Below are positions 1,946-64,000 of a DNA stretch of 64,000 nucleotides, in pieces (within the stretch, counting starts at the first letter, position 1; each line of letters begins with the position of its first letter). This stretch comes from Artemia franciscana. Lineage: Eukaryota > Arthropoda > Branchiopoda > Anostraca > Artemiidae. Below the pieces are notes generated by a model. The model was not told the DNA's origin, made no database searches, and saw only the letters and a program-made list of their open reading frames with translations. Where the stretch lies: the NCBI RefSeq assembly GCF_032884065.1, contig NC_088875.1:49030971-49094970 (forward strand). The letters run 5' to 3'. The position numbers and the translations under genes were made by a program.

Positions 1946-2019
1946 GTTGTATTATGGAAAGGCAGTGTGGTCTTCGCCATTATTTATATCCTCATAACGG
2001 AATTTACCTGTCTCTCAAT

Positions 2020-2388: not shown

Positions 2389-2556
2389 CGTTGGAAAATG
2401 AGTTTGCCCTTTTATCCTAAGATGTTTTAATTTACTCTTTTAATTCTTTTAGAGATAACTATCCCCATAGTTATTTTTCTTTCATATTTTTAAAGACCCG
2501 TGTATCGAAAATAAGTAATGTTCAATATTTACAAATTTAATAAAAGGCTTAATTTA

Positions 2557-8215: not shown

Positions 8216-8229
8216 TCTACCTCCCTCTT

Positions 8230-9480: not shown

Positions 9481-9489
9481 TTTGAACTA

Positions 9490-12400: not shown

Positions 12401-12504
12401 TGGGGGTTGCGTCGGCCCTGGAGCTTTTGTTATTTGATCTCCAAACTATTTTGAACAAAATGGCAATCTCAAAGCTTGTTACCCTCTGATCCATTTTGAC
12501 TTTG
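9490..12504 (+). repeat. Array of ~265-bp G-rich units (copy 1)
   Basis: Diverged units follow one another head to tail. Each contains, in order, a 'GGGGCATAA.TTACAACACTT' motif, a 'CCCCGGGCTCTGG' motif, 'AACAAAATGGCTATCTCAAA', 'GATCGGATGCATTTGGGGAAA', a run of 6-15 G, 'CTAGTTGCCATC.GATCACTT', 'TTAAAAAGGGAACTA' and 'CGAAGTTTATACGACCA'. The ATGGCTATCTCA anchor falls near 9617, 10150, 10607, 10877, 11255, 11523, 12201 and 12461, with decayed units between. ORFs inside are chance frames broken by the G-runs. Confidence 0.88.
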
Positions 12505-16159: not shown

Positions 16160-16640
16160 TGGAATAATTTCTTATTGCGATATTTGCCTTCTCTACAGCT
16201 AATCTTGTAGTTCTTTTGGGATTGGGCTTGTTTTTATTCGTTCCTATTTTTGTTTTATTTTGAATTAGATTATTTTCTGTAATTAATTTTGTGTACATAG
16301 GGTTGAGTGTGTATTCACCCAAGGGATGTATTATTATTTAAGTTTTGCTTGATTTCCATTGCCTCGCCGACAGTTTGTTTGATTCCTAGGTCATTGCTAA
16401 TTAGAATCGTTTCGTCAAATAGAACGTAATGGTTTAGATTTTCAAAAATATAAATGCTTAAAGCTGAATCGAATGATATGGAGTTATTTCTAGATTTTAA
16501 TGCTTTTTCAATACTTTCTTTGTGTTGGTGTAATCTTGTTCCTAAATTTTGATGGGTTCGATCAAGAAAACCAAATAGGTTTTGTTGGTTCACTTTCTGA
16601 GGAAAAAAGTCCTCATTAATCTCTCTTCTGTAGTTGTATT
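16160..16640 (-). pseudogene. Penelope-like element GIY-YIG endonuclease C-terminal fragment (copy 2)
   Basis: The minus-strand ORF from 16593 to 16315 reads RTHQNLGTRLHQHKES..., then FDSALSIYIFENLNHYVLFD and GIKQTVGEAMEIK. This matches the order seen after the GIY-YIG core of Penelope-like retroelements: a TRLxxH helix, a 'SALxxHIxEN.H' segment, a conserved acidic stretch and an 'EAIEIxK...N' end. After a frameshift at about 16315 the reading continues as GEYTLNPMYTKLI and on to about 16166, fitting the element C-terminus. In such elements this nuclease nicks target DNA for reverse transcription. The RT and the GIY-YIG motif itself are absent, so it is a dead fragment. The family assignment rests on pattern memory, not alignment. 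Confidence 0.65.
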
Positions 16641-16710
16641 ATGGAAAGGCAGTGTGGTCTTCGTCATTATTTATATCCTCATAACGGAATTTACCTGCCT
16701 CTCAATGCGG

Positions 16711-17100
16711 CTTAATTGGATCTTCCACTGTGTTTTCATAGTTCAATCTGCTTTTAGCTTTCCATCTTCCTGCTTTTAGCTTAATTCTATCTTCCACTGT
16801 GTTTTCATGGTTGACTCTGCTTTTAGCTTTCTATCTTCCTGCTTTTAGCTTAATTCTATCTTCCACTGTGTTTTGATAGTTCACTCTGCTTTTAGCTTTC
16901 TATCTTTGTGCTTTTAGCTTAATTCTATCTTCCACTGTGTTTTGATAGTTCACTCTTGTTTTAGCTTTCTATCTTCCTGCTTTTAGCTTAATTCTGTCTT
17001 CCACTGTGTTTTGATAGTTCACTCTGCTTCTAGCTGTCTATCTTCCTGCTTTTAGCTTAATTCTATCTTCCACTGTGTTTTGATAGTTCACTCTGCTTTT
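16711..17100 (+). repeat. 69-bp minisatellite, six units (copy 2)
   Basis: The same unit recurs at about 16728, 16797, 16866, 16934, 17003 and 17072, with regular 68-69-bp spacing. The full-length unit that is shortened in copy 1 is intact here. Confidence 0.93.
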
Positions 17101-17275
17101 CATTGGAGAATGAGTTTGCCCCTTTATCCTAAGATGTTTTAATTTACTCTTTTAATTCTTTTAGAGATAACTATCCCCATAGTTATTTTTCTTTCATATT
17201 TTTAAAGACCCGTGTATCGAAAATAAGTAATGTTCAATATTTACAAATTTAATAAAAGGCTTAATTTAATTCTTC

Positions 17276-18793
17276 TAGCAGGCAAAAGCAATCAAAAGTG
17301 AAGTTGATGCACAAAAGATGCCAAGTCAGTGCTGAGGTATATGCCAGCTCACATATGCGAAAAAGAAATAGCACACCGGAATGTTCTATAAATAAAGCTA
17401 GGTCATCTGCTTCACTTCTTAAAGGGGTCAAGCTAAGTTGGATTCAAGATTTGCGCATTTAATGAAAACGGAATTTAATTCTTCTATCACTCAAAAGCAA
17501 TCAAAGATGAAACTGATGCGATATATTTCTAAGTGAATGCTAAGGTACACGCCTGCTCACTTAAGCGAAAAAGAAATAACACTCCTGAATGTTATACAAA
17601 GAAAGCTAAATAAAATAGATCATTTACGCTCATATATCAACTACGGCTCCCTTATAAATAGATTCTAAATCTAGTGTATTTATCCGCCAAGTTGACATAA
17701 ATCCTAAGCTATGTTATCTACTTCAACTTAAAGAGGCCAAGGTGGAAGATTATTCATGTTCAGATAACTTAGAAACAATTGGAAATGTTGTAGTATATGA
17801 AAAAGATTGTGAAATGACGATTGATGAAAAAGATCATGGATGTGAATAAAATGGTATACTGCATACTGAAATGATGGATAATAAAAATGAAGAAAATGGT
17901 GCAAAACATGATGATGAAAATGAAAATGATTTAATCCATGAAAATAGAGATCATATGCGGTTTAAAAAAGTGATGTGAAAAATGGTGAAAACAATAATGA
18001 AAGTGAAGATATTGAAAAAGAATTTAGAAATAATTCAAAAAGAAAGTGATAACGATGAATCTTCGGTGTTAGAGAACTCTAACAAAGTAGTTGATTTTAC
18101 TGATGAGAAGGACCAGATGTGTGTTGAGCGAAATACCTCTAGAATTGATGACTGTGATGCAAGCTCAGTTAAACTTGATGCGACTTTGGTAATGATAGAC
18201 ATAGAACCAGAGGAAATTAGAGCTAAAAAAAAAAATAATGACACTAACAGGGTGAGTGTCCAGCATTTTTTTAGGGGGGGGGGCATGAGGGGTCTATATC
18301 CGGATAGTCAAGGGGCATGGGACATATAATAATTTTTCCTCTACATTATTGGGGGGCAACTGCCTAGTGGTACCTAATGGTAAGGGGAGGGGCAACCGTT
18401 AAATAGAAGAGATATTTAATGTTTAGGGAGAGTGTTTAATATAACGGTATGATTGAACCCCAGTCTATTTGACATATGGGTGTTTGATTTTGTTTACAGG
18501 GCTTGAGATTGACAGGCACTCCTAAGAACAAAGAACCTTCTTGGCTTCTCCTATCTTGACGAACTAATGTAAAAAACCCTCGTGTGTGAGATCAATCCCT
18601 CCAAGGCGACTTTTGGCTTTCATGTGTGAAGTTTTTTGCTTTATCAATCAGGATCAAAGTCTAAAGCATATCAGAACAGATAGTAAATTGGAAAGCAGTT
18701 TACGTTGTCTGTATAATAAGTCTGGCAAAAGGTACAAAGAAGGACCAATAGCAAATATAGATCACGCTTGGGAAGAAATTAGTGTCGTTACAG
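17276..18793 (+). pseudogene. Relic multi-exon gene with acidic region and MADF-like exon (copy 2)
   Basis: This copy keeps the best MADF-like exon: after the acceptor TTTATCAATCAG ending near 18650 the frame reads DSKLESSLRCLYNKSGKRYK..., then HAWEEISVVTGF. This resembles the MADF/Myb-SANT-like pattern 'LI..V...PCLYd....YKd...R..AWeEIa..lg', a DNA-binding fold found in arthropod transcription factors and in PIF/Harbinger-type transposon proteins. Upstream, an acidic stretch (about 17733-18240) is open over 17982-18247 and ends KKKNNDTNR right at an AGG|GTGAGT donor (about 18252). An acceptor TTTGTTTACAG near 18502 resumes in the same phase (GLRLTGTPKNKEPSW). A stop after DHGCE and frameshifts in the acidic part mark it as non-functional. 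Whether it was a host gene or a transposon gene is unknown. Confidence 0.5.
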
Positions 18794-20239
18794 GTTTTCT
18801 ACCCAATTTCTTGCTTTTTCACAATAACATGGCTTTTTTGCCTTTGCCGTTGATCACATTTTGTATATGAAAAATACTGTTTTTCTTAAAAAAATTAATT
18901 TTATTTTAAAAATTAATTTTATAAAATTAATTATATATTAATTAATTGGAAATTTTTCCAATCAAATCCTTTTAGGGGGGGTTTTAGTTTCGCCACCTAT
19001 CTAAACCTGTTCAGAAGTTAATGTCGTGTTTTATGATCCTTCCCATACCTACTTTTGAACCTCTTAAAATTCTTTTTCCCTCTTTAAATTTCTCCTTCTC
19101 TCTCAGGCAGGATAGCCTGGCATACGGTAAGAAGGAAGAAAATGCTTATACATAATTTAAGTATTGTTCAAATGGCAGATGGTAACGAAAATAAATTAGT
19201 GGTTCATTTAGTCACATGGGACTCAATTATATATTTTTTTAATCTTTGGAAATGCTGGAAAAGCAAATACACCGGAAAAGCTGACAAAAGGAAGTTTGAC
19301 GAGGCTGATTATCAATCATAGCATTACTATTCATACAGCCTCCGACCCGAGTTAATTTTGCTTTGTATTTTGGCGATTGTTTGATTTAAATAGCCACCTT
19401 ACATGTCAATTTAACATTACAGGCTGACTTAAAAGTAATCTTAGCATGATATTCGACTAAAAGCATTATTATTTCAGGCAGGATTTTTTGTATAGTAAGT
19501 TGGTTTTTTATTCGCATAGTTCGGGGGCAGTAATTCACGAATTGATTAGGCAAAAAAATATAATGAATATCAAAACACCTAAATCTAGAAAAATACACGA
19601 AATGCTTTTTTCTTGTGGGAATCAGAGTATAGGGTAGGATTCTAACCTTAGGGGGAACACGGCGGATAACTTTTTTTATGTCTGAAATTAGTTTCACAGA
19701 GTAAAGCTCGGTCCCTTGGCTCCTTTGAATGAGCACTCTTTCCTTCTTTTTTTCTCTACTTTTATGAGTAACTCCTCCGCGAGAAACTCCTCCCCCCATA
19801 TTCGCCTCGGATAATTTCAGATCTTCATTAGAAGGGAAATTGAAAGCTAGGCTCGCCTGTTTAAGTCAGAGGCAATGCTACAGCGTTTCCTATAGTAAAC
19901 AGCCTTAAGGCTTCAAGTATTATTATTTATTTATTTCCCGGGAGCAAGGTACTTTATATGGAAGGGATGGACGTATAACCTTTGTAGGGGGCTCATCCGA
20001 TTTCAGATTAAAATTTATAGTGCCTTTGTTAAGTCAAAAGTCATTGGAGGGCAACCAGTCCCCCTCCCCCGCGTGCCGTCTTTCCCTAAACCCATCTGAT
20101 CAAAATTTTAATATAGTCATCTCGTCCAAAATAGTCCATGGGTCAAATAACCATGCCTACTGGGTTAACCCCCCCCCCCCCCCGCTGCCCACGGTGCGAG
20201 TACTGTAAGCTAGGCATGTTTCTTACTGTTACTATATTA

Positions 20240-21792
20240 GCCTTTTTTTTAAGAAAAGAGGGCATGTTTGATCCTGGATCTCTAAGAAAGCTTACAGTAT
20301 TAAGGTGAAACTTTAAGGAAACGTTGAGAGGGATGCCAAACACAACAGAAAAACACTTTTTCCTTGTTGTTTGTGAAAATGGAATTCCAGCAATATCTTC
20401 AAGGCCACGGGCGATCCTTGTTGCAATAACATCACTGTGGCGTTTCCACGAAAGATTACAATCAATGTAAAAACCTAAATAACGGATTTCCTGAGCCTGA
20501 AGTGTATGCATATTATCAAACAGAATTCTACCATTAATACCATTGGGCTTGCCTTCTCTAAAATATAAAATGAAATTAGTATTAGCAACTCAATCTCGTA
20601 AAAACATGGAAATTTCTCAAAACGCTATTCACTCTCAAGACAAGGCTATCCAAACAATGACTAGAAAATGTAATTGCAGTGTCATCAGCAAATGACGTTA
20701 AGCAACAATCTGGAAGATAAAACCTCATGCTATCTACATAAACTATATAAAGAAGCGGACCAATGACCGATCCCCGTGGCACACCACATGACACTTCATA
20801 AGAGGAAGAAAACACATCATCAATCATCACTTCAGTATACCTCCCGCGTAAATAACTTTCAAACCACTTGAGACTTTAAAATCAAAAAATACTGTTAGGG
20901 GGTCTCACCTCTTTCAAAACAATTATTTATAAAATCAACAAAATAAATGGCAGCAAGACTAGTTGAATGACCCTTTCTAAACCCGAATTGGGTGTCACTG
21001 AGTAGGCAATGTTTCGTGAGATAGTCCTAAAGACGACAATGAATTACTTTTTCCAAAATTTTGTGAAAACAGAGCCAGCATCGAAATCTGTCTCCAATTA
21101 CCAGCATTTGTCCTGGCACCCTCTTTATAAAACGGGATGACTTTAGCTTGCTTCAGCGCTTCTGGAAAGGTCCCTGTTTCCAGAGACAGATTGATAATAT
21201 GTAGGATACATGGTATTATATACGTCATAATAGCTTTAAAAGTTCTGAGACTCACGCCATCTACCCCAGCAGAATTCGCTTTTTTTATGTTTTTCGCTAT
21301 CTTAATCACTTCATCATTTGTACACTTTTTAAACTGGAACTCAACACTCACCACGAGAGTCCTTGAATTCCTCACTGAGAATATTTTCCCTGTCACATCT
21401 TGCACTCTCTTGAACAGACAATCCAATTTGAGAATAAAACTGATCAAAAGGAATTCGCAACTATATTTTTATCACTCACAGAATTTCCGTTTATATCAGT
21501 GCAAGGTGACTGACTATTTTTCTGATTTTCCAGGAACTCATTGATAACTTGCCATGTAACTCTTGTATCTCCCTTATTATCAGCAAACTTCTCCTCAAAG
21601 TACTTCTTCTTTGCTTGCCTTCTCATACTGTTCACCTTATTTCTCATTGCCTTGAATTCTGTAAAGTTTGCGTCATCTTGACTATTAAGATATTGCTCAT
21701 ATAATAAGTTTCTATTGTTAATCATGTCTATTGTTTCCTTCGTAATCCATGGCTTGCGGGGTCTACCCTTCTTTTGCTTTAAAATCAATTGC
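20240..21792 (-). pseudogene. LINE reverse transcriptase fragment, uninterrupted (copy 2)
   Basis: This is the same LINE as at 5050-8215 without the 1.6-kb insertion. Minus-strand pieces in order: the linker (21788-21444, GRPRKPWITKET...MRRQAKKKY); fingers and palm (21447-20995, with SAGVDGVSLRTF, PEALKQAKVIPFYKEG and WRQISMLALFS); palm (20830-20582, GVPRGSVIGPLLY and the catalytic SFADDTAITFS); and thumb/connection (20511-20143, RYLGFYIDCNLSWKRHSD). The FADD catalytic aspartates are kept, but frameshifts separate the pieces and the endonuclease is missing. The plus strand has a T8 run at 20243-20250 where the element's 3' A-tail would be expected. Confidence 0.9.
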
Positions 21793-23069
21793 TACCGCCT
21801 CTTCCTCTTCCTTGAATTAATTCTTTATTTATCTGAAGGCTCAATGAGGGGTGGAAATGTTTCTCCGACTTGTAAAAACATAATAAAATGCATAAAAACA
21901 TATTTTTTGGTGCGTTTTATATTTTTGTTCCCCCCCAAACGGAAGTCCCGGATACGGCTCTGGGGATTATATATCAATTTATACCTCAACCCTCCCCTCG
22001 TCTCTCCCTTAGAATTAATTTTGCCCCTTCCTCATTCCCACCTCTTCATTATGGTCGTAGAAACTTGGAGGATGCTCATTCGATCAGAAATTGAGAGTCC
22101 TATTCCTTTTCTTTAAGTCGAAAGTAGTTCGAGACCAAACAGCCCTGTGCTTAAACTGTTATACCCGATATCTGGTCCTTTTGTTATTGAGGTACTTATT
22201 TCGTACTCTCTCTTTGGCTGGCCAATTTTGCGTGTGGGGGAGTTTTTCATTGAGGAAATTATCGGGGAGACTTGGGGGGAGGTATTTTTCACAGGGGGAT
22301 GAGGGGTAAACGCGTGAACCCATCTTAAGGACGGCTGAAGGTATTAAGTGGAAGCTTACAAGGCATGATAAGAGGGGTGTTAAAATATGATTAAAGGGCT
22401 ACAAGGTCCTCCCTACCCTTTCTAGATGCCCCCTTCCCTCGAAACTGATTAAAATTTCGAAAAGCCTTTGTTCAGAACAGGCAAAAGGTCTATTAACTAT
22501 GGCTCCGGGGATGCAATGTTCCCCAAAGCCTCCAGGGCAAGGATTGTAAATTTTACTATTGATTCTTTATTAATTACAGAACAAATAAATATTAAAACAA
22601 GTAAAGCTTAAATTAAATATGCAAATCTAGCTGAAAACGAACAAAAATATTTTGCGATTGAGGTATATATGAAAACCGAGAACGAACAGAAATTAGCCAA
22701 ACAATCATAGCAAACAAACATACAATATTTACTAATAAAAATGAACAAATAAATCTTAAAACGAGTGATTTATCATTTATCCCATGATTTATCATTGATA
22801 TTTTTTTTCGGGGGGGGGGACGGGTCATGAAGGATTAGGGATCAGCTCCCATAAGGTTTGGATTAAAATATCGGTATTAAGTTGTTGTTTTTTGGGGGGA
22901 GGGGTTCATGCCATGGAGAGCCAGGGGAGAGTTGCCATAATTTTCGAAATAAATAGTGTAAATACTTTTTTTTTGTTTAGGGGGTATGCAGGGAGGACCA
23001 GGGGTCAGTTCCCTTATGTTTAGGAATGAGTTTTTTTAGTTGGGTGGGAGTTTTGAGCTGGGGTATGAT

Positions 23070-26000
23070 CTTTGAACTATTTTAAAAACCCTCAAATACA
23101 AATCTTACATGCCCAAAGGGACATACAATACTTGTCCTCCCGGCTCTGGAGGGTTGCGTTTACCCTGGAGCTTTTATTATATGATGTTTTGGCTTATTTT
23201 AACAAAATGGCTATCTCAAAAATTTGATCGGATAGATTTGGGGTAAAGAGGGCAGGGGGCTAGTTGCCATCTGGTCCCTTCTGACTTAAAAAGGGAACTA
23301 CGACTTTCAATTTCATGTAGAATGATCCCTCTTTAAAGTTTATATGACCATTCCTTCCATTAAACCTCATAAGCCCCCGGGGCATAATTTACAACACTTG
23401 TCCCCCGGGTTTCTGGAGTGTTCTGTAAGTCCCTGATTTTTTTTTTTATATGAGCTTTGGTCTTTTCTGGAAAAAATAAAATATATAAAAGATTCGATCG
23501 GAAGCATTTGGGGAAACGAGATTTGGTAGGGGAGGGGGCTAGTTTCCATCGGGTCACTTTTGACTCTCAAAAAGGGAACTATAACTTTCAGTTTTTTGTC
23601 ATTCGAGTCCCCTCCGCAGTTTACCTCTTCCATAAAATCATGTATGCTCTCGGGGCATGAGTTACAACCCTACCCCGGGCTCTGGGGGAGGGGGGGCTTA
23701 TGTTGACCCTAAAGTCTTTGTTGTCTGATCGTTGGATTATTTCAAAGAAAATGGCTATCTAAATTTGATCGGATGCATTTAAGGAAAACATGGTGCCATC
23801 TGGTCCCTTTTGACTCTTAAAAAGGGAAATAGAACTTTTTACTTTTTTTCCCAGAGGCACTATAACTTTCGATTTTCTATCGAATGAGTCCCCTCCGAAG
23901 TTTATACGACCATCTCTTCCATATGAAGTGACTCTGGGAAAAAATAAACATTGAAGCCTAATGGCCTTAAGGTGTGTGGGGGAGGCTAGTTGCCATCGGA
24001 CCACTTTTGTCTCTTAACAAGGAAATTAGAACATATAATTTCTAATCATTTGATTCCCCTCCGAAGTTTATACGACCAGCTTTTTCATAAAAACCTTACA
24101 TGCGCTCTTACTATAATTTACAACCTTTCCCGCGAGTTCGGAAGGGAGGGGGGGGAGTTGTGCTGATCTCGAAGTTTGGTCGTCTGATCGTTGTACTATT
24201 TCAAGCATAATGGCTATCTCAAACTTTTGAACGGATGCATTTTGGTCTTTAGGGTTGGTGGGGGGAGGCTAGTTGCGATCGGATCACATTTTACTCTTAA
24301 AAGGGGAATTAGAACTTTCAATTTCTAATTATTTGAATCCCCTCTGAAGTTTAGCCAACCACCTTTTCCATAAAAACCTTATATTCCCCCTTGTCATAAG
24401 TTACAACACTTCCCCTTGGCTCTGGGGAGGTTATGGTAGTCTTTGCCGTCTGATCGTTGGACTATTTCAAATATAATGGCTATCTCAGAATTTTGAACCG
24501 ATGTAATTTGTGAAAAGAGTGTTTGTGTGTGTGTGGGGGGGGGTAGATTCCCTCCGATCACTTTTGATAACTCTTAAAAGGTAACTAGAACTTTCGATTT
24601 TCAATAAAATAAGCAATCTCTGAAACTTATACGACCACCCCTTACAGGCATATCTTACAACACTTGCTTCTGGGTTCTGGGGGTTGCGTTGGCCCTGGAG
24701 CTTTTGTTATTTGATCTCCAGACTATTTTGAACAAAATGGCAATCTCAAAACTTGTTACCCTCTGATCCATTTTGACTTTGAAAAAGGGCTTTAGAAATT
24801 CACATTTACAATTGGACCCGCCCTATTCGAAGTTTATACGACCATCCCTTCCATAAGAACCATATAAGCCCCTAGGGCGTAATTTACAACACATGTCCCT
24901 GGGTTCTGGATGGGGCTAATTAATCCCTGGAGTTTTTGCTATATTATTGTTGGTCTATTTTGAAAAAAATGGCTATATAAAAAATTCGATAGGACATACT
25001 TAGGGAAAAAAGTGTTGGGCTAGGGGGGGGGTGGCTAGTTGCAATTGGATAAATTTTGGCACCCAAAAAAGGAATTAGAACTTTAAATTTCTAATCATTT
25101 GAGCTCCCTCCGAATTTTATACGACCACAGGGAATCAGAATTTTTAGTTTCTAATCATTTGAGTTCCCTTTGAAGTTTATATGACTACCTCTTCCATAGA
25201 ATTTTCAATTTCCAATCAAATGAGCCACCTAAGAAGTTTATACGTCTGCCCCTAACATATCCATATCTCTTAAAATACCCCCGGGGTATAACTTAGAACA
25301 CTTGCCCCAGTGCCCTGGGAGGAGGGTTGTGTCGACCTCGTAGTTTTTGTTCTATGATGTTTGAACTATTTTTAACAAAATGGCTATCTCAAAATTTTTA
25401 TCGGATGGGTTTGGGGAAGAAAGAATCGTATGAGCCCTTGTCGAAGTCTATACGACCATCCCTTCCATAAAAACCTTATGCACCTAGGGTATAACTTACA
25501 ACACATGTCCCTGGGTTCTGGTTGGGGCTGTGTTATTCATGGAGTTTTTTTTATGATCGTTGGTCTATTTTGAAAAAATGGCTGCATAAAAAATTCAATA
25601 GGACATATTTGGGGAAAAGAGGATTGGGGTGGGGTGGGGGGCTAGTTGCCATCGGATCAATTTTGGATCTTAAAAAGGGAACTATGATTTTCAGTTTCTA
25701 ATCATTTGTGTTCCCTCCGAAGTTTTTACGACCACCTCTTCGGTAGAACTTTAGATTTCCAATCAAATGGGTCACCTCAGAAGTTTATACGACTACCCCT
25801 TGCATATCTATATCCCTTAAAATATCCCCAGGGCATAACTTAAAACACTTGCCCCATGGCTCGGGGGTGTTGACCCTGGAGTTTTTGTTAAATGATGTTT
25901 GAACTACTTTTGACAAAATGGCTATCTCAAAATTTTTATCCGATGGGTTTGAGGAAATAGGGTGTGAAGGGGCTAGTTGCCCTCTGATATCTTTTGACTC

Positions 26001-43985: not shown

Positions 43986-44349
43986 GTGCAATCTGTTTGC
44001 ATAGATTTCGTTGGCCTATTTTTGTTTTTATGTTTTTAATTGAAAATCAGAAGTTTTTTTTTATTACACAAGCTAAAATTGTATTCATTTAAACAAACAA
44101 GCTGTTAAACAAAATATAATATGATAAGATTCTTATAATAAGCATGCCAGTCAATATTCATGTATATTAAAGGTTGTAACTGGATGGGGGTAAGGATAGC
44201 TTCAGTTCTGTAGATGGTAAACAAACCATGTAGATTTAGTATCAGTATGTTTGCACGATATTCCTCTTTCACATCCACCCACAACTATATTGTAAAATAT
44301 TATGAAAATTTTATGCAAAATTGTGTGCTTAGTTTCATTTTCTACTTTT

Positions 44350-45804
44350 TATGGCACTTGGTAAATACTAAGTGCCATATAGCAATCGCAAATTCTGTTG
44401 GTCCCGGTTTTGCTAGTTTATGCTCTTCCAGATAAGCTAGGACAATGAAATTCGGCAGGCGTATCAGGGACCAGACCATATTAATTAAAAATAGTCGTTT
44501 CCCCGATTCGACCATCTGGGGGGGGAGTGGGGGGACAGTTAACTCCGAAAAATAGAAAAATTGAGATATTTTAAACTTACGAACGGGTGATCGGATCTTA
44601 ATGAAATTTGATATTTAGAAGGATATCGTGTCTCAGAGCTCTTATTTTAAATCCCGACCAGATCCGGTGACATTGGGAGGAGTTGAAGGAGGGAACCTAA
44701 AATCTTGGAAAGCGCTTAGAGTGGAGGGATTGGGATGACACTTGGTGGGAAAAATAAGCACAAGTCTCAGATATGTGATTGATATAATCGGAGTGAATCT
44801 GCTCTCTTCGGGGGTGTTGGAGGAGAAAAATTGAGGTATTTCTAACTTACGAACGGGTGATTGGATCTTAATGAAATTTTATATTTAAAGGGATCGTTTT
44901 TCAGAGCTCTTCTTTCAAATCCCGATCGAATTCGTTGACAATGGGAGGGGTTGGAGGGGGAACCTAAAATCTTGGAAAGCGCTTAGAGTGGAGGGATCGG
45001 GATGACACTTGGTGGGAAAAATAAGCACAAGTCTTAGATATGTGATTGACATAATCGGACTGAATCTGCTTTCTTTGTGGGAGTTGGAGGGGGTGTTAAT
45101 TTGGAAAAATTAGAAAAAATGAGATATTTATAACTTAAGAACGGGTGACCGTTCGTGAGGTATTTTTAAATTTGATATTTAGAAGGAACTTACGTCTCAG
45201 ATATCCTATTTTAAACCCCAACCAGATCTGGTGACATTGGGGGGGGGGGAGTTGAAGGGGAAACCGGAAATCTTGGAAAACGCTTAGGGAGGAGAGATTG
45301 GGATGAAACTTGGTGGGTAGAATAAGCAAATGACGTAGATACGTGATTGACGTAACCGGACTGGATCTACTCTCTTTGGGGGAGTTACGGAGGGGGTCCA
45401 GTGCTTTGGCGAGTTCGGTGCTTCTGGACGTGCTAGGACGACGAAAATTGGTAGGCGTGTCAGGAAGCTGCAAAATTGGACTTGATAAAGTCGTTTTCCC
45501 CGATTCGACCATCTGGGGGGGAGGGCTGAAGGGAGAGGAAAAATTAGAAATAATGAGGTATTTTTGACTTAAAAGTCGTTTATCGGATCTTAATGAATTT
45601 TGATATTTAGAAGGACATCCTGACTCAGAGCTCTTGTTTTAATTCTGACTCAGAGCTCTTATTTTAAATCCTGACCGGCATTAAGCCTCTGATTTTCTTT
45701 TTAAATTAATCTATTGATTCTTAGAATTTTGCTAGAGCTCATGCCATATGAGCTCTTGGCTCTTCCGACCTCGTCACAAGGGCCATATGAGCTCTTAGCT
45801 CTTG
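44350..45804. mobile_element. Second copy of the Helentron-like element
   Basis: It has the same 5' end (TTTTTATGGCACTTGGTAAA then TACTAAGTGCCATATAGCAA), also preceded by a T-run, and the same ~280-bp internal units ('GAACGGGTGATCGGATCTTAATG' at about 44581, 44851 and a decayed one near 45130). It shares the last ~400 bp with the copy at 5876-7493, including the sub-terminal hairpin at 45734-45756, which here has two perfect 9-base arms and a 5-base loop. It ends at GAGCTCTTAGCTCTTGTT. Some internal units are damaged or missing. Confidence 0.65.
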
Positions 45805-45879
45805 TTTTGTTTGTTTCTGAGTGCTCAGTTGCGGAGTAGAAATACCTGAAATGCCTACCTAATTATTTATTGAGCTGTA

Positions 45880-51999: not shown

Positions 52000-53130
52000 A
52001 CAATCAAGATTTTACTCCAGAGGAAAAATAATTGTGCCGGTAGGCTGAAATACAAAAGTAAAAATGTAAAGAAATCTTATATTTTCTAGTTTTGGCACAG
52101 AAGTTGACGTTTAAGTGTAAAATTTATTAGTTTTTACTAGAGCGTAACTACTTTTTGCGTTTTGACCTTGAATTTTGCATTTTTGGTGTATGTCTTAGTG
52201 GCATTTGATAATGTTCAAATCAGTTATATTAACTAAGTCATTAATCACTTCTAATGAATAATTTCAGTACATCGCGTTCTTCCTCGAGCTCCATAATTTC
52301 ATTTTGCTTATTTTCCGGAATTTTACGTTTTCAAATTACATTCTATGTCAGGGAGAGACCAAAGCCCCCCTCCCCACTTTGGAAATCTGGACGCCCCTTA
52401 AAAATGTGTCAAAATAGAACAGTAAGAAACATTCCTCATTGATTCCTGGTGAAAACCTAACTTCGGGTTTGTGGGGGCAGTTTTGATTGGCCAACTACCT
52501 TTCTGCAATAATTTTAAAAACTCATTGGTGGTTATGTCTGACATTCTTGTCTTTTTTTCTAAGATGTACTTGCTTATAGTTTTGAGCACTCCTGCGTGCA
52601 GGGGGGCTCTGTTAGTGGAACTAGAGGAACCTCTCTAAAATTTGGTATAAGCGTCATCACAAAGAATGATGGACCAAAATTGGTCTCCATTCTATTTTGG
52701 ACCACTTATCATCTAGAAACAACCCTTCGATACCTCCTCAGTGGTCAAATTTATATAGCCACCTCGTCACAGGGGTATACCAAGGGGACCATTGGGACCC
52801 AATCCACGAGAAATCGTAAATCTTTCTGAATTTATCGGAAGTCATTCAAATTATCAAATGAAATTCACTTTTTTATTATTACCTCTCCCCGCCAATTGTT
52901 TATTGTCGCCCCCTCCCCACAACACAAATTCCGGGTACGCACCCGCCCTTTATCTGTATTGAATCTCGTTTAATGTCTGGATTATGAATATTTATCTTGA
53001 AGTCTGTAGGCTAGTCATTTATGAGCTTTCGAATCACATTTTACCCAATCCTTTTGTCTTAAATACTAATTTTTAGCTTTAAATTTGTTTTTAAAAACAT
53101 AAGGTATCATTAACTAATTAATATTTTATC
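52000..53130. other. Region upstream of the LRR exon; no gene recognised
   Basis: The open frames 52254-52442 and 52596-52829 have no recognisable domain. A promoter or non-coding first exon for the LRR gene could lie here or further upstream, but I cannot point to one. Confidence 0.3.
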
Positions 53131-53139
53131 TATTTTCAG

Positions 53140-53291
53140 CTATACTCTGTTGTGCATTACCCGTTCACTTTGAGAGGATAAGAAAACTCCGCCAGTTTTG
53201 TCAGAAGTTTCAGTTGCTTTTGGAGCTTTATCAAGGAAAGTGAAGAGAATAATAATTTAAGTGCTTATTAGTTTTAATTGAAATATGTGAA
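53140..53291 (+). other. Probable 5' UTR part of the LRR-gene exon with splice acceptor
   Basis: A pyrimidine-rich TTTATCTATTTTCAG ends at 53139, preceded by a branch-point-like TTAACTAATT near 53110. This suggests a non-coding exon upstream and an exon of about 313 nt (53140-53452) with 152 nt of 5' UTR. TGA and TAA codons lie close before the ATG at 53292, so translation cannot start much further upstream in frame. The acceptor is inferred from consensus only; transcription could instead start within this stretch. Confidence 0.45.
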
Positions 53292-53452
53292 ATGAACAAG
53301 TTTGGGATGATGGTGATTTTTCTTCTTTTCGGATTAGCAACAGCTGAAGAATTATGTCCTGATATCTGCTCTTGCTTTGGTGGACTGGTTGATTGTAGCA
53401 AGAAAGGCTTAAGTGATGTACCTGATGATCTTCCGAGTTGGACAGAATTTTT
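53292..53452 (+). CDS. First coding exon of a secreted/membrane LRR protein, LRIG/lambik-like (partial gene)
   Basis: The exon begins at an ATG and reads 53 codons plus two bases before a perfect GTAAGT donor at 53453. Residues 1-18 (MNKFGMMVIFLLFGLATA) form a classic signal peptide with a likely cleavage site before EE. Next comes an LRR N-terminal cap with cysteines at 22, 26, 28 and 35, giving the spacing C-x3-C-x-C-x6-C. The following residues GLSDVPDDLPSWTEF match the first strand of an LRR domain. 'DLPSW' just before the first leucine-rich repeat is what I recall from LRIG proteins (vertebrate LRIG1-3, fly lambik), which are single-pass membrane proteins with LRRs and three Ig domains that modulate receptor signalling. 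Slit or another LRRNT protein is the alternative. The exon ends in phase 2 (TT|), so the next codon is probably Leu. No downstream LRR exon was found up to 64000, so intron 1 seems to exceed 10 kb. Confidence 0.8.
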
Positions 53453-53459
53453 GTAAGTA

Positions 53460-54480
53460 TCGATAACTATGATTAATCTGGGTAAAAGTTATTTATAGGA
53501 CTAAGTACGTGAGAAGAAAAAGAGATATATCGTTAAACCTCCAGTCAATATTCTTACGAAATTAAATAACTAATTCGGTCGCAATTTCACTCCATCACCC
53601 TCTGATGCTGTATCGGCTATAGGCCTAGAATCTGTGGGTGAGGAATACCGTAGGAATGTAAGAATATAAAATGGAAGGAATTTAATGTCAGAAAAACCGA
53701 TTGGGCAGCTGCCCTAATGGGGCTAGGTGTAGCCCTAGACTATAAACGAAAGATTGCTAAATTTATGGGCTTTGTGTTATTTTTTTTACTTATTTTTGTT
53801 CATCAACTGGTTCACAACGCTAAACAAATTGAAAAAAAGAAGACAGCAACCTGAGAGCAACAGCGGTTTTACGAGATTGCACTCATAAATGTGCGTAAAA
53901 TAATCCCAATTTATATAAAAATTTACTAGACATGAGGGCAGATTCAATACTACTAGCTATTTTCAGTGGCGTAATTTCGTCAAAATCCTAGGCCGAAGAG
54001 AAGTGGGACCCAATTTCAAATCAAGTGGAAATTACAGTGAAATCTGAAAAATGAGTCTGGCGTATGCTAATTTCAGCAGTGAATCTACTGTTGAGGATTT
54101 TCAACTTTTTACCTACACCACTTCCCTCTCCAGAGCATGGACTTTTATTAGTTCGGAAATTTTTGTACATGGTAAATAAAACCCACAGAATAATTAACCA
54201 ACTCGTGGGAGGGATTTGGCAAAATATTAATTCAGTTTGGAGATTAGAGTGGCTCAAGGACAATTCAATTTACATATAAAACTCGGGGTAAATATTTGGA
54301 TGTTGAGGGGGTGTGTAAAAAATGAATGTTATATTTGGATTTACGATGAAATTCTGTCTCTAAATATATATATCTATTTCTCAGCTATATTTTAGTGAGT
54401 TAATCCGGGAATTTACATTTTTTCTTGTTATTTTCCGCTGTCTTATTTGAAATATTATACCTGTTTTTTTTTCGTTTCGT
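53460..54480 (+). other. Start of intron 1 of the LRR gene; nothing recognised
   Basis: The stretch follows the GTAAGT donor at 53453. No LRR-encoding exon or element was recognised here. Confidence 0.4.
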
Positions 54481-54690
54481 TTTGTTTGTAACGAAGTAAT
54501 AAAACGTATTTCAAACAGTAGGCTGTACGAAAAGTTTGGTCTAATCCCGCTTTCTAGGGCTATAATGAGAGAAAGGTTGAGATGGATAGGGCACGTTCTG
54601 CGTATAAAGGATGATAGATTGTCAAAGATTGTCCTTCTATGGCTAAATGGAAAGCAGGTCGTCCGCGGTTGGGTGGGAAAGCGTCGTAGG
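54481..54690 (+). pseudogene. LINE C-terminal tail fragment in intron 1
   Basis: The frame from about 54481 reads CNEVIKRISNSRLYEKFGL, then IMRERLRWIGHVLRIKDDRL and SKIVLLWLNGKQ. It then stops after GKRRR at about 54690. 'RLRWIGHVLRM.DDRLPK..L' is the typical tail of non-LTR retroelement ORF2. It lies on the same strand as the LRR gene, with no RT domain next to it. Confidence 0.75.
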
Positions 54691-55201
54691 TAGGTTTAAG
54701 GGAAATTAGAACTTCCTGGGAGGGTGTGAAGAGGGAGGCTTTGAGTAGACTGATATGGAGGAGTGTGCATACCTGTTTTGGCCTCAGACGGCTTTTTTGC
54801 GGCGAGTTGTTTGTAATAGTAGATGTAGATGATTTGTAAGTATAAAGGCATTGTGGTCTAAGAAATTATTGAGGTGTTTTTCAGAAGCTAGAGGAGGACA
54901 TTCTTTATTTTCTCTTTCTCCATTTTGTTACTTGTCTATGAGTCGGACAAAAATTTCTGGGTTGTTCAAACTTGGTAAGCCCCCATCCCGAATACGGCAG
55001 TGTCTCTCTGCCCCCTCCCCTTTGGTTCTTCTGCCTCATAAATGAATTTATATTCTGAATATGCGTCTTAAAAAGTTATCTTCAACTCCATATCTCCGTT
55101 CCTTCTTTCTTTACTTAAGGATGTATCCTAGATAAATTCTTGACTCTTCAACCACTCCAGAAAATAGTAAAAGTCACTGAACTCTAGAGCTTTAGTGAAA
55201 T

Positions 55202-55495
55202 TAAATAAAAAAAACTAATTTTTTTAGCTGAAAGTAAGGAGCGACGTTAAAACTTAAAACGAACAGAAATTACTCCGTATATGAAATGAATTGTCCCCTC
55301 CGCAACCCCTCGCTCTTTACGCTAAAGTTTGACTCTTTGCCACAATTCTACTTTTTAAAACAATTAAAAGCTTTAGCGTAAAGAACGAGGGGCTGCGGAG
55401 GGGACAATTCATTTCATATACGGAGTAATTTCTGTTCGTTTTAAGTTTTAACGTCGCTCCTTACTTTCAACTAAAAAAAATTAGTTTTTTATTTA
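55202..55495. mobile_element. Foldback element, ~130-bp near-perfect arms
   Basis: The left arm (55202-55333) contains AAGTAAGGAGCGACGTTAAA, 'ACGAACAGAAATTACTCCGT' and 'CGCTCTTTACGCTAAAG'. The right arm (about 55365-55495) is its reverse complement with few mismatches. The loop is about 30 bp. No ORF is present. Confidence 0.9.
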
Positions 55496-55789
55496 ATTTC
55501 TGAACGTTTTTGAATTAATGCATGTTTGGTTTTGGCTCTCCACACTTAAATTATTAAAATGAAATTTGTATATTAATTCTTTTTTTGGCTAAATGGCTTT
55601 CTCTTAGTTTTGATCAGACGATTTTGAAAAATAAGGGGTGGAAAAGGAGGCCTAGTTGCCCTCGAATTTTTTGGTTACTTAAAAAGGCAACTAGAACTTT
55701 TAATTTTTAACGAACGTTTTTATTAGTAAAAAAATGTACGTAACTTCAGAATTAACTTACGTAACAAACTTTCATAACCTTATATTTTT

Positions 55790-56070
55790 ATTATGTATAC
55801 GAGGGGGTTTGTACCCTCGTTAATACCTCGCTCTTTACACTAAATCGTAAGTTTTGTCCCAATTCTTTAAGAATGACCCCTGAATCAGAAAGGCCGTAGA
55901 ATAAATAGTTGAAATTACTAAAAATACTTTAGCATAAAGAGCAAGGTATTTATCTCCTCCTAAATACCTCGCTCTTTATGCTAAAGTATTTTTAGAACCC
56001 CTCATATGCGTAATAATCTCTGTTCGTTTTAAGTTTCAATGCTACTTCTTCCTTTCATTTGAAAAAAACG
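55790..56070. mobile_element. Composite foldback fragment with an inner palindrome
   Basis: Foldback-family ends ('CCTCGCTCTTTACACTAAA' and 'TCTGTTCGTTTTAAGTTTCA') enclose a nearly perfect palindrome at about 55918-55997. Its arms are about 35 bp (CTAAAAATACTTTAGCATAA and complement) around an 8-base loop. The right part runs into the left arm of the larger inverted repeat. Confidence 0.75.
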
Positions 56071-58405
56071 TTTTCATGTTTATTTTGCATTGTTTCCTTA
56101 TAGTAATGCTAGAGAATCCTGCGCCCTTGTCATTGAATTTTTCTTCCCCCATGACAGATTCCTCCAAGAAAAGATCCTCCAACATAGCCCCCTCTCCTCA
56201 GCCCCCTGAATAAAATCCCCCTGAAAACGTCTGTACACTTCCCAATAACCATTACTATATGTAAACACTGGTCAAAGTTTGTAACTTGCAGCCCCTCCCC
56301 CAGGGATTGTGGTGTGGTAAGTCATCCTCAAAGACATAATTATTATGGTTTTCGACTATGCTGAACAAAATGGCTATCTCAAAATTTTGATCCGTTGACT
56401 TTGGGAAAAAATGAGCGTGGGAGGGGGCCTAGATGCCCTCCAATTTTTTTGTCACTTAAAAAGGGCACTAGAACTTTTCATTTCCGTTAGAATGAGCCCT
56501 CTTGCGACATTCTAGGACCACTTGGTCGATACGATGACCCCTGGAAAAAAAAAACAAACAAACAAACAAATAAACACGCACCCGTGATTTGTCTTCTGGC
56601 AAAAAATACAAAATTCCACATTTTTGTAGATAGGAGCTTGAAACTTCTACAGTAGGGTTCTCTGATACGCTGAATCTGATGGTGTCATTTTCGTTAAGAT
56701 CCTATGACTTTTAGGGGGTGTTTCTCCCTATTTTCCTAAATAAGGCAAATTTTCTCAGGCTCGTAACTTTTGATGGGTAAGACTAAACTTGATGAAACTT
56801 ATATATTAAAAATCGGCATTAAATGCGATTCTTTTGATGTAGCTATTGATATCAAAATTCAATTTTTTAGAGTTTTGGTTACTATTGAGCCGGGTCGCTC
56901 CTTACTACAGTTCGTTACCACGAACTGTTTGACTGTTGGTCAAAATACGGATATCCGGACCAATGTGTTTAAGGCCCTTAACCCAATTCCTTAGTTTATC
57001 TGTGATAGTTTTTTTTTATTTTAGTCCTCACCAAAAAAGCAGGACACTTTTATTGGGTGAACACTTCTATTTTCAAAAATACTTCTTTTTTCGGTTGTCG
57101 CTGAAAAAAACTCATATTTTGGTGTTTCCATTGAATAGAATCAAAGAACAATATTGCCCCCTCCCCTAGATTAAAAATGCCCCTGTCCTCTAGGTTTTCA
57201 TGAATGGGCGCCCTGTGTAGAAGAAGAAAATATTTTATTGTTATAGTTGTGGCAATAAATTTTTTTCATCATTGTTTTCTTCATTTTAAATTTACTTGAA
57301 TGGTAGCCTATCATATGATGAAGCAGCCTATTAAGTTTTTAGCAAAACGCAAAAGATGCACTAAAGTTCTGAAGAGTGGCAGACCCATTCCAATGCGTGG
57401 TGGTTTCTGTTCTGTTCATGCAAACTTTTTTATTCATCATCTACTTTTTGTCAGTTCTAATCGTTTCATTTTTAAATACCACTCCTACTTTTCGTTGAAA
57501 AACGAAAAGAAATGTAATTATTGAATAGGCAAAGACTAAAGAGAGGGACTGATGTGACGTTATATTATAGCGTTTGAAGAGCGTACGCCTGTGAACAATA
57601 AGCTGAAGAAGAAACGTTTTTTTTTGTAAACATTATTGATTTGTCAAATATGGACTTCATGTATTAAGTCACACTAAAACTACAAAACAATCAGAGAAGT
57701 CCATTGTACAGGTTTAGAGCCCATATATGAAAATGTTGGAATTGAAAAACAACAGATAATTCACCTATGACGGTGAAATTTGTTTAGACCTTAAAAATAT
57801 TTTGGCTAATCAGGGAGGAGAGGGGTACCTCAAAGGTGCATTTTAATGCGGAAACATTCCAACTCGTTAAGCCTTCGGATAAACACAGAATTATTTCTAA
57901 GGGAGAGATGAGGGGAGGGTGGAGGTAGAAATTGATGTATAATCCCCAGAGTCGTATCCAGGACTTGTTTTTTTGGGAGTGGGGGGTACAAAAAATTTGT
58001 ATTTAATTCTCTGATTTCTGGGAATGTTTCTCATCTACGCTATTACTATCAAACAGTTCGTGGTAACGAACTGTAGTAAGGAGCGACCCGGCTCAATAGT
58101 AACCAAAACTCTAAAAAATGGAATTTTGATGTCAATAGTTACATCAAAAGAATCGCATTTTAATGCTGATTTTAAATATATAAATTTCATCAAGATTAGT
58201 TATACCGTCAAAAGTTACGAGCCTGAAAAAAATTGCCTCATTTTAGAAAATAGGGGGGAATACCCCCTAAAAGTCATACAATCTTAACGAAAATCACACC
58301 ATCAGATTCAGCGTATAAGAGAACCTTATTGTAGAAGTTTCAAGCCCTTATCGACAAAAATGTGGAATTTCGCATTTTTTGCCAGAAGACAAATCACGGA
58401 TGCGT

Positions 58406-58437
<32 letters not shown>

Positions 58438-59020
58438 CAGGGGTGATCGTATCGACCAAGTGGTCCTAGAATGTCGCGAATGGGCTCATTCCAACGGAAA
58501 TTAAATGTTCTAGTGCCCTTTTTAAGTGACCAAAAAATTGGAGGGCACCTAGGCCCCCTCCCACGCTCATTTTTCCCCAAAGTCACAGGATCAAAATTCT
58601 GAGATAACCATTTTATTCACCATAGTCGAAAAACCTAATAACTATGTCTTTGGGGACGACTTACTCCCCCGCAGTCCCCGTGGGAGGGGATGCAAGTTAC
58701 AAACTTTGACCTGTGTTTACATATAGTAATGATTACTGGGAAGTGTACAGACGTTTTCAGGGGGATTTTTTTTTGGTTTGGGAGAGAGTTGAGGGGGGGG
58801 GGTTACGTGGGAGGATCTTTCCATGGAGGAACTTCTCATGGGAGTTAAGACTTTCAATAGAGGGGGCGCAGGATTTTCTAGCATTATTTAAAAAAACAAT
58901 GAAAAAATAAATATAAAAAGTTTTTTTCTACTGAAAGTGAGGAGCAGCATTAATACTTAAAACGAACAGAAATTATTACGCATATGAGGGGTTTACCTCC
59001 TCGTAATACCTCGCTCTTTA
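55994..59020. repeat. Large inverted repeat, ~950-bp arms and ~1.1-kb spacer
   Basis: The left arm (about 55994-56945) and right arm (about 58036-59020) are reverse complements over essentially their whole length, including a foldback-family end, the 'GGCTATCTCAAAATTTTGAT' block and the inner terminus CAGTTCGTGGTAACGAACTG. They differ at the A/T tract: AAAC-type repeats at 56548-56575 versus about 32 T at 58408-58438. The spacer (56946-58035) holds unrelated sequence and a fragment of the 26438-27300 family. Open frames within the arms are not conserved as protein. Confidence 0.88.
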
Positions 59021-59129
59021 CAACTATGAAAAACCCATTTAGTCCAAAAAAATTAATATACAAATTTTGTTTTAATTATTTATGCGCGGAGAGCCAAGAT
59101 CAAAAAATGCATTAATTTAAAAACGTCCA

Positions 59130-59432
59130 GAAATTAAACAAAAAAAACAAGTTTTTTTAAATGAAAGTAAAGAGCGACATTAAAACTTAAAACGAACAGA
59201 AAATACTCCGTATATGAAAGGGGCTTTTCGTCCTCAACGCCTCGCTCTTTACGCTAAAGTTTTTAAATTTTTTAAGAAGTTGAGTTAAGGGAAAGAGTCA
59301 AACTTTAGCGTAAAGAGCGAGGCGTTGAGGACGAAAAGCCCCTTTCATATACGGAGTAATTTCTGTTCGTTTTAAGTTTTAATGTCGCTCCTTACTTTCA
59401 TTTAAAAAAACTTGTTTTTTTGTTTAATGAAA
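59130..59432. mobile_element. Foldback element, ~130-bp near-perfect arms
   Basis: Arms 59130-59262 and 59299-59432 pair almost perfectly around a ~36-bp loop. Same family as 55202-55495: 'GAAAGTAAAGAGCGACATTA', 'ACGAACAGAAAATACTCCGT' and 'CCTCGCTCTTTACGCTAAAG'. It is followed by another family fragment up to about 59590. Confidence 0.92.
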
Positions 59433-59599
59433 GTAAAGAATAACATTAAATCCCAAAACAAGTAGAAGTTATTCCGTGTAGGAGAGGAGCTGCCCCTTTC
59501 TCATCTCCATCTCCACCTCATGGTCGGAGAAACTTCGGAGGGTGTTCGTTACGTCAGAAATTGAGAGTTCTAGTTCTTTTTGGCACTTGTCCATTATTC

Positions 59600-62500
59600 A
59601 GAACACACCAAAAAAGTGAATTTAGGTTAATCGTAATGAGATATACCAAAATATGATGACAATATAATACTTTATTAACAAAATTATGGGAACTACAGCA
59701 GAAAATTATGAAAAGAAGGGCCGTCTAGAATGCATTATCTTAAATACCGAATATAACCTAGCGTAACCAAAATACCAACTCTATTTATTAAATGTTTAAT
59801 TAAAATATACCTACAATGTATTTTTTCCACCGAGCCTAAGCTAATTGTCTCCGAATCCAGATAGCTAAACCGTTTTTTGTCATATCGAACAGTCGAAAGT
59901 GATTGGAGACCAACCGGCCACGGAGAGTGTTTTCTAGGTAAGGGGGGGGGGGGTAAACGCTGGCTCCCTCCGTGTGCTTACCTAAGAGGGGGTATGGACG
60001 GCAGGATCTACATTTGCAAAAAAAACCAGCAAAAAGCAAGTGGTTTGTGTTAAAAATACAGGACGATATGGAAGAAACGATATTCCATCTTTTGGAAGGA
60101 GGGGGTATATACTGTGACTATGAATTGCTTATCGATAGTTGAGTCACGGGGACAGGGGTATTTCATGCAAAACTGCCAAAAAAGAAAATATTAATGACTG
60201 TAGCGCAAACATAGGTAATTCTGTGATTTTTAAAGCAAGTTTAACAGCCATGAAAGCTTCCGGGTCCTGCCCAATGTCTTCCTATACATTGCACTATGTT
60301 TCCCTGCGCCAACTTTCGAAAACTACTAAAGGACTTAGGGCTATGCCCCTCCTCCAGGTGGCGTCCCTATTCAGAAAGTTAGCTAAGTAAATTTGACAGA
60401 TTTGTGGTCCTCCATCTTAATTTGCATGAGGTGTCATTATCAGGCTGGTCATCTTAATTGTTGCAGTTAGCGGCAAGATTCAAATAAAATTGCGGTTAAA
60501 AACAAGCATCCTTGCCGCTAGGCGAAAAGTTTTGTCTGCTGATGTCTTGACTATGAAACGCTAAAAGATGTTTTGGGTATTATGGTAATGTGTGTAGCCC
60601 GAGGAAAAAAGGGATGGCCTAATCACACGATCAAGGGTTTCAAAGGTGTGAAAATAAAGGTGTTCCTTTTTGGCAATGGTTGTAGAAGAACACAAAAAAA
60701 TCTACTTGATTATGTTTTAGTGAAGATTTAATTGTCAGATGCTTTGATTTCCATTTCAGGGCTAATTTTAGAATCGTGCAGGAAGACGAAAAGACTTGGT
60801 ATATGGGCTGTTGATGGAGAAGTTTTTCTTTGTAGGACTATCAAGGTATAGGCCTACCATGCCAGGGATGGGGTGGGGCGTTTTTCCAATATAATTAAAT
60901 CCAAGGGAAGACACGTGTAAAAAGAATCAAAAATCCTTGCTAATGTAAAAAAAATCATTTGACTTGTGCCTGAAATTCTAGCTGTGCCATAAAGCATCTG
61001 TGCAGTGTTTTATGGAGGCGGGCAATTTTTGGTACCTGTCTGTTATAGCTAAACACTCAAGTTCTTAATCTAAGTAGAACCGGTTTCTCTGACGCTCGAT
61101 CCTAATGAAATGTACCAAAATATCATTAAAACATTTAACTTTATTAACAAATTAGGACATTATTCTTTATCAATACAGATCGCAAGCTAAATTTAACTAA
61201 AGGAATTTCATGCATGGTCAGGAAAACCGGTTCGACTTGATAAAGAACTCTGGTATTGTAGCTAGAACAGATAAGTACCCCATTTTGTTTAAACTCGTCA
61301 AAAAATATTTTTGTTATGTTTTTATGAGTCTGAAATCAAATCTTTTTTTTGTGGGGAGAGGGGTTTAAACCTCGTACATCCCCCGCTAGATATAACCTTA
61401 TATCTACATAATTCAAAATTGAAGGGGCTGAGAGAGTTCTTCGTGAAAAATTCGGATAATAACTATGTTTTAAATCATCCACAGAAAAAAAACTTCTGAC
61501 CCGGAGCAAATCCCACGGTTTATGGTTAATTATAATTATTTGCAGCTGATTGGTCTAGAATTAATCTTCTAGAAATATAATGAGCAGTTCAGTCAACTAC
61601 CTAGTTAGAACCTTTGAGCTATGGGCTTCAACAAGTTTTATAGTAGGCTATGAAGGAGCAAATTTTTCAGACGTTATTGTCTGATGCTTACTCAGAAGTA
61701 CGTTTCGCGCCCTAGTTTCTTGATTTTTTTCCTATCCCATCTAAATAATAAAGAAAGTATTTTGCATATGGAACGGCAGTAAAGAGGCGTCTAGTTTGTT
61801 AACCCCCCTAAACTACCCTCGTATGAACCTGGGATTTGATAGCTATTCAACAATTTTGACAACGTACTTTACATCTTTTTTCTTTAACTTTCCCAAATAG
61901 ATAAGATGCATTCATGTTGTTACTGTTGTGAATATTGCTGTTAGAGTTTTTAAATGTTAGGGTTTAAGAGACATATTCGGTGAGTTCGGCTCTTTCAGAG
62001 CGCCTGATAGTGTTTCAAAAATTAAAAAAATATTATCTTTCTAATTTTATCTAACTAGATTATCTTACCGATGGCTGAGAACGATAAGAAAAACCGTTTC
62101 ATGGCTATTCAGGGAAGGAAGGAAGGATTTATTTTATGGCCGAAAGTCATTTTAACTTCTTATGAAGCAACTCTTTCGCAAGGATTTCTTTATATTTTTT
62201 GAAAACAGAGAACTGTCCATTTAGACCTGCGTGCTGGGAGATTCGGCACGTAAAGATGGGTCGAGAAGCGTATAAGATGATTCTCAGTTAGGAACGCTGG
62301 TGGGGGGGGGTTAGTCGACTCTCAAGAAATTCTAAAATTTCCTGGATTTCTGGGCAGTTCTCTTTAAAATCATCGAACGTTTTTTACTTGATGTCCCTCC
62401 TTCAAAAAGTCCCTCCGTTTATGCCGGGTTTCACTCAAGGGAATGCCACGAAAAGACATGCCACTGAAAACATACGTTTCGATTATTTTTCATAGTTTTT

Positions 62501-64000
62501 CTTCTACGATTTCCCTTCCTTTTGAAAAATGTTCTGTACAATTTAACTTGAGTGCCCATATGGGTCCATAGCCCTTTGGCTCTGCCCCAAATAGCGCCAC
62601 TTACTGCGTCAGTAGGCCTATCTTTCAAACTACATGTTTTTAATTTATGTCCTTGGAATTGGTAAAGTAATCTCAGGAATAGTTTTTATGGGAACCTGAT
62701 ACTAGCAAACACACCTGTTATCACTGGGAAATGTGTTGACCCTTTCGTGTGTTTGCATAAATGCTGAAGTGGGATCATGCAGATGAATAGGCTTTAAGAT
62801 TTAGGAGACGTGCCTTTGTTAGACGACCAAACAATGAAATTGGGAGGGATGCTGGTACCCGATGTACACAACCAACGCTTTTAGGTTCACAAATATTAGG
62901 CTGCTTGAGTGAATTGTTCCATGCCTGTTGTCACCATATAGGTTACACATACTCCTGGCGGTACAAGAGAGACTTTTTTTTTGGGGGGGGGGAGAATGTA
63001 TTTGAATATAAATAATTTGGCAAAGTAGTATTCCCGAAGCAATGTTATATCATATTTTAAAGGAGTTAGGGAATCGTGATGTGAGGCTCGATGAAAAGAC
63101 GTCAACCTGAAAATAGATTGGGAAAAGCTGTTTTACACAGTTGGTTTTGCTCTAACTCTTTATTTAAGGCACTTTAATGCTGTCTAAAATGTTAATGTTC
63201 AAATGTCATTTTATGTCTTTTATTTAGGTATCATTTATTAGGCCCCTTTTATTGAAATTTGAATACGAAACTTTTGTTTTTAGTATAATTTGGTGGTCGA
63301 CAGAGCAAGTGCATACATATTCAATTGTTTTTTTTTTTATTGGGGGAAGGGTGTCAGAAATTTGGAAATACGTATTTTATGATACTATTCTCCGGAAGGA
63401 CGGTCCTTTGAAGCAATTCCGTTGGAATTATCCATCCATAGCGTACAGCCATAACCTTTTAATAGACAGTGGTAGCTTCTTCTAATTTGGTAGCTCTCCT
63501 AGCTGCTCGTTACCCCCACCCCCTTATGTGGCGTTGGCTTGTTGTATGCGGAGCTTCGTCCGGTATCTTTGTTTCTCGAGGAAGAGTTGGATTATGTAAG
63601 CATCATAGCCATACAAGTGTTTGTGAAAAATAGGCTACTACGAGTTCTTGATATTATTGTATTCTCCTAAAATTGTGACTATGTGGTTGTGAGTCCTGTT
63701 AACGTTTATTTAAACAAACGCAAGTTTAAAGGCAGGTTTAATGTAACTCATAGATTTTGAAGGGCGGGAGGTTTTTGATGTCTTTTTTCGCAGTTTCTTG
63801 GGTGGGGCTGAAACCGGTAAATAATATTTAATAGGATTATTTTGTTGTATTGCGCTCATGTGTATGTGTTGTTGTTTTTTATATATAAGATAGGCTAGGT
63901 GGATAATCATGAGATGTTATGTTTAGATATTTATTTATAAGATATAAATCATAACATAAATTGGCAACGCAAGTCCTTAGGACTTTCTTTTTGCTGCAAT
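59600..64000. other. Remainder of intron 1 / unassigned
   Basis: A short diverged repeat pair is seen at about 59612-59700 and 61090-61160 ('TACCAAAATAT.AT', 'ACTTTATTAACAAA'). I found no exon with LRR, Ig or other recognisable domain, and no RNA gene. Open frames of 60-83 codons appear random. Confidence 0.35.

Follow-up and report, generated by a model that had tools for sequence, protein, structure and literature searches.

Can a coding exon of 53 codons be recognized in 64 kb of crustacean DNA rich in repeats, and can the protein family of its product be named from so short a piece? This question is raised by a 64,000-nucleotide stretch of the Artemia franciscana genome (hereinafter, the window), in which a first-pass annotation, made without database searches, proposed the first coding exon of a gene of the LRIG group of membrane receptor regulators, a group that we take to consist of Drosophila lambik, C. 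elegans sma-10 and vertebrate LRIG1, LRIG2 and LRIG3. As judged by sequence comparison, the coding sequence of the Artemia LRIG gene begins, with a probability of about 97 %, in the proposed exon. The features of the locus and of its surroundings are collected in Table 1.

Table 1. Features of the putative LRIG exon, the adjoining intron and the rest of the window
Feature	Positions	Strand	Remarks
Artemia LRIG, first coding exon (highly probable)	53292..53452	+	53 codons + 2 nt; 54/54 residues identical to P0121
Predicted signal peptide, residues 1-18	53292..53345	+	Hydrophobic run MMVIFLLFGLATA; end set by eye
Predicted LRRNT cap, residues 22-48	53355..53435	+	PF01462, E 1.8e-5, 24.6 bits
5' splice donor GTAAGT, phase 2	53453..53458	+
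Candidate 3' splice site, CAG after 10/12 pyrimidine tract	53138..53139	+	79 such sites on + strand
Candidate 5' untranslated part of exon 1	53140..53291	+	Frame closed upstream of 53256
Intron 1 up to the window end and beyond; minimum length 10,548 bp	53453..64000	+	P0121 residues 55-981 not found downstream
Hairpin element in intron 1	55199..55499	.	132-nt arms, 37-nt loop
Large foldback in intron 1	55996..58993	.	Arms of about 940 nt (87% complementary) around a loop of about 1.1 kb
Second hairpin, same family as 55199..55499	59141..59421	.	122-nt arms, 37-nt loop; 80-85% to first
Duplication block	1-4326 vs 14675-19051		96%
Duplication block	4537-5875 vs 19725-21062		95%
Duplication block	7493-10638 vs 21064-24245		94%
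Duplication block	11969-12504 vs 24245-24781		95%

The exon and its peptide

Translation from the ATG at 53292-53294 yields the peptide MNKFGMMVIFLLFGLATAEELCPDICSCFGGLVDCSKKGLSDVPDDLPSWTEF, followed by two bases of the next codon and then by GTAAGT, so that the coding stretch ends at a phase-2 donor; residue 54 is L, and its codon, of which exon 1 supplies TT, must take its third base from the start of the next exon. The details given in the first-pass annotation, namely, the 53-codon length, the signal peptide, the cysteines C22, C26, C28 and C35 (C-x3-C-x-C-x6-C), the DLPSW motif and the GTAAGT donor, are all present as described. The more permissive pattern C-x2,3-C-x-C-x5,9-C occurs a single time when all six reading frames of the window are considered. 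The LRRNT caps the LRR solenoid and contains disulphide bonds. The Pfam match of the exon to this domain lies slightly below the curated cut-off of 25.8 bits and the leader was delineated by eye; with these qualifications, exon 1 displays the signal peptide and N-terminal LRRNT expected of an LRIG protein. By eye, the first LRR appears to start across the exon 1/exon 2 splice junction. An NCBIfam search produced no match.

The reading frame itself is inconspicuous, being open only from 53256 and spanning just 66 codons from stop to stop, with an in-frame stop contained in 53140-53291. An acceptor-like sequence, ...TATCTATTTTCAG, ends at 53139 and implies a putative, unproven upstream non-coding exon. 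In the window, GTAAGT occurs 14 times on the + strand and 25 times on the - strand, and CAG preceded by at least 9 pyrimidines out of 12 is found at 79 and 99 sites, respectively; because both kinds of motif are this common, the splice motifs alone carry little weight. The candidate 5' untranslated part contains one ATG, which is directly followed by a stop (ATG TGA, 53285-53290); this minimal upstream open reading frame is separated from the start codon of LRIG by a single base and could reduce or gate LRIG translation.

It is the match to an annotated protein that sets the exon apart from a chance frame. When the exon was scored on its own against approximately 5.8 billion proteins, with full-length proteins allowed, a single protein among the 11 candidates reached E <=10, and all 54 of its residues aligned to the exon were identical (E 1.3e-28). 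This protein (P0121, 981 amino acids, encoded on a 49.9-Mb sequence) is named LRIG3 isoform X2 from Artemia franciscana by NCBI, so the protein search that the first-pass annotation had proposed led to one match bearing an LRIG name; in all probability, judging from this identity, it is the product of the window's own gene. The number 3 in the name does not necessarily imply that vertebrate LRIG3, and not LRIG1 or LRIG2, is its orthologue.

Family assignment of the full-length protein

A peptide with an LRRNT cap might come from another LRR family sharing this module, such as Slit, VLR-like, LGR or LRRC proteins, and the first-pass annotation had named a best match to a family of this kind as evidence against its proposal. 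On that point the exon alone is ambiguous: in a search against PDB, chains of the lamprey VLR (E 9.4e-6) and of Slit (E 8.7e-5) outscore LRIG1 (E 5.3e-4), which appears only in the 14th row among the best 60 matches, behind VLR, Slit and others. One possible reason for the low rank is a difference in the LRIG1 chain 4u7l, in which DLPSST stands opposite DLPSWT of the exon. Thus, as far as sequence comparison goes, exon 1 by itself cannot separate LRIG from Slit or VLR, and it is the full-length protein that decides.

The full-length protein, which starts with the same 54 residues, favours LRIG. Its Pfam layout consists of LRR_8 (nine stretches), LRRCT (23.7 bits, cut-off 20) and I-set (three stretches), and its LRRNT, at 19.7 bits, falls under the cut-off of 25.8. 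A search for the LRR motif gave 14 matches, one of which, at residue 85, was judged spurious, and with two weaker repeats added by eye the count comes to 15. The fifteen LRRs and the LRRCT expected of an LRIG are accordingly found in P0121, as are the three Ig-like domains with a single membrane span after them (the most hydrophobic 19-residue windows are at residues 785-809), all of them in residues encoded outside the window. This is the arrangement described in PMC2873917 as the hallmark of the LRIG family: fifteen LRRs, three Ig-like repeats and then a membrane span.

Similarity along the whole length agrees with the layout. In the PDB ranking for P0121, LRIG1 chains come out on top, 4u7l with 358 bits (LRR half) and 4u7m with 289 bits (Ig half), ahead of the other LRR families, the next LRR protein reaching 172 bits. 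The alignment with the Equus asinus protein named LRIG1 by NCBI (P0003) covers P0121 residues 22 to 817 with 44% identity (351 of 798 positions). Slit proteins consist of several LRR blocks followed by EGF and laminin-G domains, contain no Ig domains and are secreted; P0121, in contrast, has Ig domains and gave no EGF or laminin-G match. We therefore dropped the Slit/VLR reading of the exon: in view of the P0121 match, the PDB ranking, the three Ig domains and an alignment to LRIG1 that extends from the LRRNT through the membrane span, an origin from a different LRR family is very unlikely. That the exon opens an LRIG gene, as first proposed, is borne out by P0121, which begins with the same residues and has the layout and sequence of an LRIG.

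The DLPSW motif contributes less to this assignment than might appear. Among the best 120 of the 1613 matches obtained with an LRIG1 query, most but not all of which are named LRIG1, DLPSW is present in 31 proteins, and all 8 displayed of the 89 listed matches lacking it read DLPAW; going by these sequences, the motif is not strictly conserved and is no fixed LRIG signature.

The first intron and the repeats of the window

A search of the window with P0121 (tblastn) gave exon 1 as the only significant match, the remainder being noise with a best E of 3.1. Downstream of the exon, residues 55-981 share not one exact 6-mer with the window, a search that exons shorter than 6 codons would escape; the sole exact P0121 6-mer elsewhere in the window is located upstream, at 34554. 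Because the window yielded no exon for residues 55-981, intron 1 should extend beyond position 64000 and measure at least 10,548 bp, which agrees with the first-pass estimate of more than 10 kb.

The same annotation had this intron filled with foldbacks and LINE debris, and the first half of the description holds: there are a large foldback, with arms at 55996-56932 and 58049-58993, and two hairpins of one family. The second half found no counterpart, as no retrotransposon domain was detected by Pfam in any of the 40 stop-to-stop frames of at least 60 amino acids in 53453-64000, where older or shorter debris may escape. For 34 of these frames no family was found at E 1, and the remaining 6 gave one sub-cut-off match each (best E 0.032), all judged to be chance. 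In the LRIG pre-mRNA, the foldback with its arms of about 940 nt and the two hairpins might give rise to long double-stranded RNA subject to editing or dicing, which would tie LRIG transcription to small RNAs, a scenario that we consider improbable.

With self-repeats, among them the large duplication at 1-24781, making up 48.7% of the window, and with the later LRIG exons absent from it, the exon might be suspected to be a duplicated, non-functional stray copy, the LRIG gene using another. Against such a copy speak the 54 letter-perfect residues and the intact GTAAGT donor; moreover, at E 1e-20 the stretch 53140-53452 lies outside every self-repeat of the window, and no self-repeat touches 52001-55000. 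We accordingly give the stray-copy reading only a slim chance. As for a random open frame mimicking a signal peptide and an LRRNT, the shortness of the frame and the abundance of splice motifs speak for it, and the identity to an annotated protein makes its probability negligible.

Apart from the LRIG exon, the window contains a large direct duplication (1-12504 vs 14675-24781), the four blocks of which are listed in Table 1. An insert of approximately 1.6 kb (5876-7492) is present in the first duplicate and missing from the second, where the junction is near 21062/21064. The insert starts with TATGGCACTTGG and ends near GAGCTCTTGGCTCT, termini that may be Helentron-like, and two pieces of it are 81% like 44346-45122 and 45328-45806. 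Each duplicate carries one tandem array (2023-2388 and 16710-17100) with a common 69-bp unit. A broken retrotransposon is represented by the frame 20585-20875 (- strand), which matches reverse transcriptase (RVT_1) above its cut-off (E 5.2e-7), and by the neighbouring frames 20146-21791 and 7526-8216; frames of similar look are found in both duplicates, and we infer that they belong to one LINE.

In the first-pass annotation, the LRIG exon was regarded as the only intact host coding exon. In this respect, Pfam covered 49 of the window's 221 stop-to-stop frames with 60 or more amino acids, namely, the 40 frames of intron 1 and 9 others, whereas exons of fewer than 60 amino acids were sought for the LRIG gene alone. 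Apart from the RVT_1 frame, six of the 9 had no family, the frame 7526-7885 had one weak match, and the three matches of the frame 16318-16638, all below cut-offs, were judged to be chance. Over the whole window, Rfam at gathering scores gave no match and a tRNA scan found no tRNA. The richness in repeats is normal for the Artemia genome, the repeat content of which is given as 67.26% in PMC11492255 and as about two thirds in PMC10827361.

Proposed role and comparison with known LRIG proteins

The Artemia LRIG gene is already annotated in public databases and is an ordinary gene rather than a discovery; what is new for biology is only the location of exon 1 of this gene and the lower bound for intron 1. 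A literature search returned no paper in which Artemia and LRIG occur together, each as a whole word, and neither of two papers on the Artemia genome (PMC11492255, PMC10827361) mentions "LRIG" in its main text. Beyond this, a very probably real 53-codon exon was recognized in this repeat-rich stretch of 64 kb by reading the sequence, and its family was named correctly as far as the full-length protein allows one to judge.

Exon 1 encodes the predicted signal peptide, which would direct LRIG to the cell surface, together with the cysteine-rich LRRNT, with which the LRR solenoid is capped at its start. By analogy with its relatives, the LRR/Ig ectodomain may then bind BMP type I and type II receptors, and perhaps receptor tyrosine kinases, so that Artemia LRIG would tune receptor signalling, most likely by raising BMP signalling. 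These predictions are modelled on relatives as described in PMC2873917, according to which SMA-10 binds BMP receptors and raises signalling in worms, sma-10 mutants are rescued by fly lambik, and vertebrate receptors are bound by LRIG1.

Among known proteins, the closest is Artemia franciscana LRIG3 isoform X2, from which the window peptide does not differ at all across exon 1. Mammalian LRIG1 (P0003) has the same domain order as P0121 and is collinear with it from the LRRNT through the membrane span; the cytoplasmic tail remains unaligned past a juxtamembrane stretch, and the mammalian protein reads DLPAW where the Artemia exon has DLPSW. For C. elegans SMA-10 and Drosophila lambik, the likeness to P0121 consists in the family hallmark as these proteins are described in PMC2873917, and by the same description the tail of SMA-10 has 19 amino acids, compared with roughly 170 in P0121.
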